33,278 nucleotides of DNA from Bacteroidota bacterium (lineage in GTDB: Bacteria > Bacteroidota > Bacteroidia > Chitinophagales > JACZTA01). Under the pieces are notes generated by a model. That model had not been told where the DNA came from. It made no database searches and was given only the letters and a program-made list of their open reading frames with translations. Numbering within the stretch: the first letter of the stretch is position 1; every line of letters starts with the position of its first letter. The DNA lies in assembly GCA_022573915.1 (NCBI GenBank), contig JACZTA010000004.1, positions 1-33,278 of the forward strand. The letters are read 5' to 3'. This document shows positions 29,521 through 33,278 of this stretch, one piece after another. Made by a program: the position numbers and the translations under genes.

Positions 29521-29640
29521 ACAATGATTAATTTTGATAATTAAGGTTTAAATTAATGTTTTTACGGTGCTTCGTTAGCATTCTTCGCGTCCGTTTTCGC
29601 ACGCGCGTAAGGCCGGGCGACAGACTGCGAACAGGGAGGT
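29521..29640. repeat. 120-bp dispersed direct repeat, copy 1
   Basis: Aligns without gaps to 32341-32460 with 103/120 identities (hand count). Shared core GGCCGGGCGACAGACT(A/G)CGAACAGGGAGG. Confidence 0.92.
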
Positions 29641-30551
29641 TATTTAATATTTTCATTGATCCACTCTCCCGAAACGGATACTCTGGTCCACTTATTTACA
29701 CGCCCATAGTATCCATTTTTAAACAGTTCATCAATATTTACACCACCTCCGGCAGTTATACCTATTAATTTCCATTGTTCATTATCCTGTTCAAAGAGGC
29801 CTCCTCCGCTATGACCAGCTGTTGCAAAAAATTCTAAGGGTAGTGGAATCACATTTCCCATTTTATTGCAACATTGTTTGTTGGTAGGATGATCAAAATC
29901 TGCATATAAACTTGAATACTGGTTTGAATTTGGTTCCAAAAAACCTCCCAATGAATCTATAGTATTCTCACCTGCAATCTTTTTTTCAGATCTTTTATAT
30001 AATTGCTTTTTAGGTTTGTCCGCTAGATATATCATTCCATAGCCTACTCCAACAACTTCAGCGTGAAGTTCACCAAAGTCTGCGTTCAATTTTGCAGGAG
30101 TCAAATTTGTTACTTCACGGTCTAATTCTATTATGGCAAGGTCTGTTTTATTGTCAGAGTTGAGGTAGGTTGGGTGGAAAGTCAATTTAACCCCTTGGTA
30201 TAGCTGATCCTTATGATCCATAAAGCAAAATTGGAAATTTTTAATATCCGCTTTTCTGGGATTGGATGTGTTATATACAACCAGCATGGTGTCTTTACCT
30301 AGGTAAATTGTATCGGGCGTAATATCAACTTCGGTAAATATATGGGCTGCCGATAATATATGTTTGGGGGTGATTAAAACACATGAACCAAATAGGTTTC
30401 CATCCGATATAATTTTTCCAACGCAATCAAATTGTGGCTGCTGAGCCAAGGCAAAATATTTATTAATAGGAACGTCATGCCGGATAGCTCCAGAAATAAA
30501 AAAAAATGCTAATGATAGTACCAACAATGTTTTTAATTTTATGTTATTCAT
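29640..30551 (-). CDS. Trypsin-like (S1 fold) secreted serine protease
   Basis: FGSCVLITPKHILSAAHIF (His region), KTDLAIIELDREV (Asp region), TAGHSGGGLFEQ (Ser region). Start 30551 (MNNIKLKTLLVLSLAFFFISGA) is preferred. Confidence 0.8.
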   Translation of the reverse strand: MNNIKLKTLLVLSLAFFFISGAIRHDVPINKYFALAQQPQFDCVGKIISDGNLFGSCVLITPKHILSAAHIFTEVDITPDTIYLGKDTMLVVYNTSNPRKADIKNFQFCFMDHKDQLYQGVKLTFHPTYLNSDNKTDLAIIELDREVTNLTPAKLNADFGELHAEVVGVGYGMIYLADKPKKQLYKRSEKKIAGENTIDSLGGFLEPNSNQYSSLYADFDHPTNKQCCNKMGNVIPLPLEFFATAGHSGGGLFEQDNEQWKLIGITAGGGVNIDELFKNGYYGRVNKWTRVSVSGEWINENIK

Positions 30552-30647
30552 AGTCTTTCTTATCGCTTTTATGAGCAGGAAGGTAGCTTTTTGCTGCGAC
30601 ATTAATCCAAAAACATGATGGAAATAATGCCCTTATCTCCCGAATAG

Positions 30648-32340: not shown

Positions 32341-32460
32341 ACAATGATTAATTTTGATAAATAAGGTTTAATTTAATGTTTTTGTAGTCCTTTGTCAGCA
32401 TTCTTCGTGCACGTAGTCGCAAGCGCGCAAGGCCGGGCGACAGACTACGAACAGGGAGGG
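32341..32460. repeat. 120-bp dispersed direct repeat, copy 2
   Basis: Gap-free alignment with copy 1 at 29521-29640. Carries an inverted pair CGTAGTC...GACTACG. Confidence 0.92.
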
Positions 32461-32490
32461 GCGTGAGTGAAATGGTATTCATATAAATAA

Positions 32491-32922
32491 GTTAGGTGCC
32501 AGTAAAAAAAATGAAAAAAGAACAGGAATTTGCTTTAGCCCTCTATAAAAAGCATCAATACGATCTTTTTCTGAAAAATGCTGAAGATTCAGATAGAATG
32601 GATCCTAAATGGGTAATTTGGAATGAAAGCAAAGAAGAAGGAAAAAAGAACCTAAGAAAATTAGGCATTAAGGTAAAAGAGGTCGAAGTTGATTTCTACG
32701 AATTCTGTGAATACATTAACGAAAATAAATTGAAAAATAATGGCGAATCTCGTGCGGGGTTTGCTGCTTTTTTAGCATTTAGTAATAAAGCCAAATAGAA
32801 TGGTAACTGGCACCTAACATTCGCTATATGCAATGGTGGCTAATACAAGTTGGTTTGTCGTTATCATTGAAGTTAATTAGTGGTTAATTGGCCATGAGCC
32901 ACCACTGCACATAGCGTTTACC
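32491..32922 (+). mobile_element. Putative integron-like gene cassette (single-ORF cassette with attC-like site)
   Basis: GTTAGGTGCCAGT (32491-32503) and its exact reverse complement ACTGGCACCTAAC (32806-32818) bracket one ORF. The 3' side carries a long palindrome ending in GTTAGCA. Confidence 0.6.
32511..32798 (+). CDS. Small hypothetical protein, putative cassette-borne ORF
   Basis: MKKEQEFALALYKKHQYDLFLKNAEDSDRMDPKWVIWNES... The ATG at 32511 is preferred over the GTG at 32496, which lies within the inverted-repeat boundary. Confidence 0.7.
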   Translation: MKKEQEFALALYKKHQYDLFLKNAEDSDRMDPKWVIWNESKEEGKKNLRKLGIKVKEVEVDFYEFCEYINENKLKNNGESRAGFAAFLAFSNKAK

Positions 32923-32929
32923 GTTAGCA
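32812..32929. other. attC-like recombination site (118 bp imperfect palindrome)
   Basis: ACCTAAC (fits RYYYAAC) ... GTTAGCA (GTT core) at the ends. Inner arms CGCTATATGCAATGGTGGCT (32822-32841) and AGCCACCACTGCACATAGCG (32897-32916) match at 18/20; the central loop is about 55 nt. Confidence 0.65.
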
Positions 32930-32953
32930 ACCAATTAAAACTAAAAATGAACT

Positions 32954-33187
32954 ATGAAAACAAAATTATTACTTATTGTAATCTGCAGCGGTTTCATTCT
33001 GTTGTTTAATCAATGTAAGAAAGATGACTCTGTATTTGACGTTTATTTCTGGACAAGTAAAACAGAAATAGAAGGAACACTAACACTTTACATTGATGAT
33101 AAGAATAAAGGAATCCTGCCATATTCAGCAATTAAACCAGAATGTGGAAACTGTATCCCGTCAAACAAATGTGGACAGATTACTTGA
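32954..33187 (+). CDS. Small putative lipoprotein, possibly 3'-truncated
   Basis: MKTKLLLIVICSGFILLFNQCKKDD lipoprotein signal, then EIEGTLTLYIDDKNKGILPYSAIKPECGN. The short Cys-rich tail ends abruptly at a stop overlapping an inverted repeat. Confidence 0.55.
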   Translation: MKTKLLLIVICSGFILLFNQCKKDDSVFDVYFWTSKTEIEGTLTLYIDDKNKGILPYSAIKPECGNCIPSNKCGQIT

Positions 33188-33263
33188 TTGTTGATTGAGA
33201 GGATGATATCTTTATTAACCCTTTCCTGAGAGTTATTTCTCAGGGAAATAAATCAACTAATCA
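33185..33263. repeat. Nested inverted-repeat structure
   Basis: Outer arms TGATTGTTGATT (33185-33196) and AATCAACTAATCA (33251-33263) with a 1-nt bulge. Inner exact hairpin CCTGAGA (33225-33231) / TCTCAGG (33238-33244). Confidence 0.5.
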
Positions 33264-33278
33264 TGGAAGATAACAAGA

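Follow-up and report, generated by a model that had tools for sequence, protein, structure and literature searches.

An integron-type gene cassette with an attI-like site in a Bacteroidota genome, and a candidate recombinase system without the I2 insertion

Results

A gene cassette behind an attI-like site

The window, that is, the whole stretch of 33,278 nucleotides analyzed here, ends in a compact succession of an attI-like site, a gene cassette with its attC and the beginning of a second cassette that is broken by a repeat:

32474-32491, forward: attI-like site GGTATTCATATAAATAAG, with the crossover placed between G 32491 and T 32492 (G^TT)
32492-32923, forward: first cassette (432 bp), led by GTTAGGTGCCAGT, of which the trailing ACTGGCACCTAAC is the exact reverse complement
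32511-32798, forward: cassette-1 ORF, 95 aa; start codon 20 nt past the crossover
32806-32818, forward: extended R'' box ACTGGCACCTAAC
32811-32930, reverse: attC, covariance-model match; the bottom strand folds better
32822-32841, forward: attC inner arm, 5' side, CGCTATATGCAATGGTGGCT; complementary at 18 of 20 positions to 32897-32916
32897-32916, forward: attC inner arm, 3' side, AGCCACCACTGCACATAGCG
32917-32922, forward: 6-nt spacer TTTACC before GTT, facing the 3-nt spacer ATT (32819-32821); one-sided excess on the bottom strand
32923-32929, forward: R' box GTTAGCA, the junction of cassettes 1 and 2
32924-33151, forward: start of cassette 2 with leader TTAGCAACC and a lipoprotein-like ORF from 32954; 3' part missing
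33152-33278, no strand assigned: end of a repeat that is present in several copies and is probably an insertion sequence; it breaks cassette 2 and closes the contig; 127 bp identical at the ends of contigs C298, C248, C151 and C64

The original prediction, made from the letters of the window, had described an exact 13-bp inverted repeat around a single small ORF, and this is indeed present (GTTAGGTGCCAGT, 32491-32503, and ACTGGCACCTAAC, 32806-32818, with the ORF at 32511-32798). The palindrome at 32812-32929, the 18/20 match of its inner arms and the two arm mismatches, both A.C on the top strand and T.G on the bottom strand, are likewise found in the sequence. The core of the prediction, an integron-like cassette of Bacteroidota with an attC-like palindrome, a leader complementary to the trailing R'' box and a folded bottom strand, is supported. 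By itself, the 13-bp repeat is not compelling evidence, given that by our own estimate about 0.2 such repeats at such spacing are expected by chance per 33 kb. The reading of the locus as a lone cassette or CALIN-like element does not hold: the attI-like site immediately 5' of the cassette, the second cassette from 32924 and the multi-copy repeat at 33152 had been overlooked. The window cassette is thus the first in line behind the attI-like site.

The 95-aa product of cassette 1 belongs to no Pfam or NCBIfam family, and a search with 8-mer patterns revealed no relative among the GTDB representatives. A broader protein search yielded a single homologue in 396 genomes of the phylum (locus L160; 32% identity, E=6e-9), the gene for which likewise begins just past an attC (30.7 bits), as expected for cassette cargo. 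No Rfam family matches the window. BLASTN with the palindrome returned short scraps only, as it is the structure of attC arms and not their sequence that is conserved, so that a covariance model is required.

The attI-like site and the recombinase locus

The 22-mer GGTATTCATATAAATAAG^TTAG (32474-32495) has an exact second copy once in the 3.5-Mb MAG, on contig C219, about 75 bp past the stop codon (3') of a tyrosine recombinase gene. A near copy with 2 mismatches lies on contig C61 ahead of another cassette, and the reversed 22-mer pattern has no match anywhere in the MAG. The crossover in the window would fall at the G^TT of this site (..ATAAATAAG^TT). The cassette on C219 starts at the attI copy and consists of GTTAGCAAATATTCC, an ORF, TTTGCTAAC, a hairpin and CCGTTAG; in the C61 cassette, leader GTTGTGCCCA and trailing TGGGCACAAC are reverse complements of each other. 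No integrase lies beside the window cassette, as the original prediction had remarked; the matching recombinase, which is not an IntI, is encoded on C219.

A site of the form TATAWACWAG^TT follows the recombinase gene in at least 64 of the 80 named loci under a strict pattern, and the cassettes begin exactly at G^TT. Across 71 loci, TATA is conserved at 92-99% and A-G-T-T at 99-100%, conservation drops past GTT, and the crossover lies mostly 104-105 bp beyond the matched end of the recombinase gene. The core-adjacent box is repeated upstream (longest repeat 7.6 nt versus 4.9 in shuffles), which indicates that attI has accessory, often palindromic boxes. The window site is without the upstream hairpin common to C219 and C61 and has no recombinase alongside.

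The genome also contains a dispersed family of REP-like palindromes (GTAGTCGC..GCGACAGACTAC type), located in the window at 32385-32460 and 29567-29639 and also on C153, C139, C6, C69, C144 and C218, with about 10 further copies of 80-91% identity. One of these copies occupies the place of the attI hairpin seen in C219 and C61; another is at the border of a trypsin-like protease ORF (29640-30602, reverse strand) which, by eye, resembles an ORF inside a cassette on C277 (2654-3538).

Covariation and fold of the attC

Covariance model R1 was built from 47 attCs of other species, independently of this genome. At 32811-32930 of the window, it scores 48.5 bits on the reverse strand, with E=1.4e-10 (a rough value, as the model was calibrated only briefly), and 18.5 bits on the forward strand; this is a strong match, not background. 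Because of this score and the exact match of the 22-nt attI-like site to the recombinase locus on C219, the window feature as a whole is far beyond chance. Further matches in this genome lie on C61, C277, C181, C153, C174 and C144, some with degenerate ends, and the short attC on C219 scores only 18.8 bits. As would be foreseen for an integron-like cassette with an attC-like site, the other attCs flank different ORFs, both in this genome and in its relatives.

In 27 named loci, the model yields 149 matches, 10 of which are the opposite strand of the same palindromes, and all but one are downstream of the recombinase. At E <= 1e-6, attCs are present in at least 97 of 150 genomes of the order; these tallies are lower bounds, the initial genome scan having overlooked the window's own site. 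By recombinase status, attCs were detected in 24 of the 32 genomes with a recombinase versus 73 of the 118 others, which at the strict threshold used for the recombinase is no strong association, and we do not count co-occurrence across the 150 genomes as evidence.

When both strands of the window attC were folded, the bottom strand was the more stable, as predicted (-20.9 versus -17.5 kcal/mol; z -3.0 versus -1.8). The same bias is seen in 76 of 116 attCs (p=5e-7), and A.C mismatches outnumber C.A mismatches 170:33. Compensatory changes occur in 19 of the 24 stem pairs of the 47 attCs; 94% of the stem cells are paired, versus 67% when shuffled and at most 45% when slid, with a covariation score of 0.67 versus 0.17. 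Two stem pairs are G.T on the bottom strand, in 47/47 and 44/47 attCs, and hence A.C on the top strand, the same kind of mismatch as the two in the window's arms. Between the R and L stems, the bottom strand carries 3-4 unpaired, mostly T-rich nucleotides with nothing opposite. This one-sided bulge is four versus none in 37 of the 47 attCs; in the window, where we counted the spacers ourselves, it is six versus three, an asymmetry of the same kind (3-4 nt) as in the attCs of relatives. There is no conserved bulge within the L arm (a gap in 45 of 47 attCs), so that L-arm extrahelical bases are absent, in line with the earlier observation that none is obvious in the inner stem of the window palindrome.

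Cassette arrays, cargo and exchange between genomes

Counted from attI, 117 cassettes in 41 loci obey the integron rule: the 7-nt leader has its exact complement in an R'' box further on, behind which a hairpin extends to its closure at the following GTT. The first cassettes comply in 36 of 46 loci, compared to a mean of about 6 (2-11) when leaders are shuffled among loci. The complement spans 7 to 10 nt, mostly 9-10, in the cassettes of relatives and 13 nt in the window; the leader complements the R'' box of its own cassette at this locus as it does in the 117 cassettes of relatives. The leader-length and arm-score rules were chosen with the data in view; independent checks come from the covariance model, from the test with shuffled leaders and from the comparison of orthologous loci. 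The main cassette ORFs read in the same direction in 96 of 106 cases, and the cargo includes restriction enzymes, MerT, and APH-like and LinB-like domains, most Pfam matches being single cases.

Orthologous platforms in relatives carry different cassettes, as in insertion and not as in an ancestral fixed gene. In five pairs of loci, the similarity extends over several kb ahead of the recombinase gene. F. daejeonense and F. pokkalii are 95.7% identical over the 1.5 kb that end at G^TT, the last 70 bp being identical, and BLAST detects no similarity beyond G^TT. The same switch at G^TT is seen in a Cyclobacterium pair (92.8%) and in two further pairs (84-85%); in the fifth, F. limicola and F. 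caseinilyticum, identity is 69% over the stretch up to G^TT. Cassettes also recur across and within arrays: the first cassette of F. denitrificans, 1437 bp long, matches cassette five of another Bacteroidia genome over its whole length at 94% identity, and a 1088-bp cassette is present twice, at 99.6% identity, in the array of F. saccharophilum.

The recombinase

The C219 protein is a tyrosine recombinase of 380 aa (locus L017, 8246-9388). Its family is placed near archaeal XerA and IntI, and the nearest solved structures are those of archaeal XerA, followed by IntI. A search of this genome for IntI-family recombinases, suggested at the outset, found no IntI above the cut-off; the C219 enzyme scores 201.6 bits against TIGR02249 (cut-off 265). 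The IntI insertion, about 40 residues around I2, is absent in every aligned member of the family when compared with IntI1, IntI2 and Vibrio IntI. The protein has an extra N-terminal domain of the beta-beta-alpha-beta-beta-alpha form (AlphaFold model, mean pLDDT 82) that, judged by shape, might bind DNA at the attI boxes. The recombinase gene reads towards attI.

In a tree of 47 sequences, the Bacteroidota clade stands beside three IntI (99/90), with the Xer proteins outside; because the IntI sample consists of only these three sequences, taken from plasmids, the apparent sister relationship to IntI is a lead, not a result. Of 150 genomes of the order, 32 encode homologues of the C219 recombinase (E <= 1e-60), and the 80 named loci come nearly all from Bacteroidota, including Flavobacterium, Algoriphagus, Cyclobacterium, Pedobacter, Bacteroidales and others.

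Two loci with the same recombinase and attI are recorded under other phyla, namely an Azoarcus MAG record (L098) and an Ignavibacteria MAG (L061), and reflect either binning error or transfer. Some of the deeper recombinase relatives (L040-L055) have a GTT-R site past the gene, and L044 and L055 also have an attC match, so that the system may extend further.

State of the system in this genome

The C219 recombinase has Trp in place of the first catalytic Arg (GLWRGEL versus GLRRSEL), a position occupied by Arg in 29 of 29 homologues; the gene may be dead, or the Trp may be a consensus error. An intact copy was not detected in this MAG, which is 80% complete. Decay of the system in this genome is probable, as suggested by the Arg-to-Trp change, the degenerate attC ends, the repeats inserted in two cassette regions and the attI copies without a recombinase. 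On C61 (L023), an insertion sequence that contains a transposase-like ORF breaks the attC of the cassette at the G^TT end.

The last 127 nt of C219 (L017, 10476-10602) match exactly the start of the first cassette on the same contig, which suggests reads joining the attC end to the cassette start. Their source would be either a cassette repeated in tandem or one excised as a circle, the assembly alone being compatible with both.

Discussion

Proposed mechanism and alternatives

We consider it highly probable (roughly 87%) that the feature is a gene cassette of an integron-type, recombinase-driven system of Bacteroidota. What the comparisons establish is the anatomy, its conservation and covariation, and the exchange of cassettes between genomes. 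Under the mechanism that we infer from this comparative anatomy, the tyrosine recombinase, here the one on C219, would act on attI (TATAWACWAG^TT) and on the attCs of circular cassettes. In the circle, the R'' box and the leader would pair over about 7-13 bp and the inner arms over about 20 bp, and the resulting bottom-strand hairpin would present the recombinase with a double-strand-like site. One strand would then be exchanged with attI at G^TT, the incoming cassette taking the first position in the array, and the junction would probably be resolved by replication, as in integrons. The choice of strand could depend on the one-sided 3-4-nt bulge and the bottom-only G.T pairs, which would replace the extrahelical bases that in IntI are recognized through the I2 helix. 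Weighing against this reading are the Trp in the C219 recombinase, the failure to detect an intact copy, the window attI-like site with neither the upstream hairpin nor a recombinase, the low score of the C219 attC and the loose correlation between recombinase and attCs across the order.

A CALIN of the usual kind, whose cassette had been moved by a canonical IntI now elsewhere or lost, would share the cassette logic, the R boxes, the GTT core and the bottom-strand bias, and model R1 does weakly recognize one Vibrio attC (21.6 bits). Such an origin is nevertheless very improbable in a genome with no IntI over the cut-off, given a conserved attI-adjacent recombinase that lacks the I2 insertion in every aligned member, attCs without L-arm extrahelical bases, and the disparity between the one complete Bacteroidetes integron in IntegronFinder 2.0 (PMC9024848) and attCs in 97 of 150 genomes. 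Chance juxtaposition of a fixed gene with a dispersed palindromic repeat (REP or MITE), raised as a caveat in the original prediction, draws on the presence of REP-like palindromes in this genome, one of them 5' of the window attI; we assign it next to no weight, since attC arm sequences differ between sites and pair by covariation, each R'' box matches the leader of its own cassette, and orthologous loci change content exactly at G^TT.

Less easily dismissed, albeit still unlikely, is conventional double-stranded site-specific recombination at a short GTT core, with the palindrome as a terminator or by-product. XerA-like enzymes use double-stranded sites, and I2 is held to permit single-strand substrates (PMC7790495), so that an enzyme without I2 might work on double strands. 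Against this stand the strong covariation of arms that are free in sequence, the mere 3 nt or so that attI and attC have in common at the crossover, and a consistent strand asymmetry of the hairpin that neither a terminator nor a double-stranded site needs. The REP-like dispersed palindrome, the terminator and the plain CALIN of a canonical IntI were rejected.

Relationship to known systems

Compared with integrons (IntI1, IntI2, Vibrio IntIA and sedentary chromosomal ones), the integron-type system of Bacteroidota has in common a recombinase gene beside attI, tandem cassettes with one main ORF, mostly in one orientation, R'' and R' boxes with a GTT crossover, a leader complementary to R'', a folded bottom strand, and adaptive and defence cargo. 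It differs in its recombinase, which is without the I2 insertion, carries an additional domain at the N terminus and is encoded by a gene reading towards attI; in its attI, with repeated, often palindromic boxes; in its attC, where a one-sided bulge and invariant G.T pairs stand in place of L-arm extrahelical bases; and in its R pairing, which often exceeds 7 nt and reaches 13 nt in the window. Spirochaete integrons with a reversed intI also have a recombinase gene that points at the cassettes (PMC9668308), whereas their integrases are counted in the IntI family and regarded as having its domain. A parallel is offered by CTXphi, which integrates through a hairpin without extrahelical bases by means of an enzyme lacking I2 (PMC4792948) but hijacks the host XerCD and forms no cassette array, in contrast to the dedicated recombinase, attI and arrays described here.

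Of the traits that define an integron in the strict sense, attI beside the integrase gene with a G^TT crossover is present in the system, the recombinase being non-adjacent in the window itself, as are tandem attC-ended cassettes with R'' complementary to the leader and, by computation, a bottom-strand attC fold with R and L boxes. The L-arm extrahelical bases are absent, their place being taken by a one-sided bulge of 3-4 nt close to the R box, and so is the IntI-specific additional domain (I2 helix). Because this defining domain was tested for and is lacking, the system is not an integron in the strict sense; by its working, it is the same kind of thing. Nor is the locus a CALIN, which comprises at least two attCs without an integrase: the contig has one attC and an attI-like site.

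IntegronFinder 2.0 reported a single complete Bacteroidetes integron, in Salinibacter ruber, and before that only In0 elements (PMC9024848), and Bacteroidetes are not among the taxon-specific attC models of PMC8352920. The system occurs across Bacteroidota and seems to have been missed because integron searches target standard parts. In the open-access literature, the scope of our search, we found no prior description of an I2-less integron in Bacteroidota. On balance, we favor the possibility that these loci represent a phylum-wide Bacteroidota integron lineage, sister to IntI, that handles folded single-stranded attCs without I2, with attCs devoid of L-arm extrahelical bases, and is either a living relative of the pre-I2 state or an independently evolved way of recombining single strands.

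The I2 helix has been described as an acquisition that lets integrases use single-stranded sites and dock extrahelical bases, and in the accepted view it was I2 that enabled a Xer-like enzyme to act on cassettes in single-stranded form (PMC7790495, PMC4792948). This idea becomes directly testable with a system that has integron-type cassettes but lacks I2. If our interpretation is correct, a major bacterial phylum would harbor a big reservoir of mobile cassettes, carrying restriction enzymes, metal transport and possible drug-modifying enzymes, that is invisible to surveys requiring the IntI domain.
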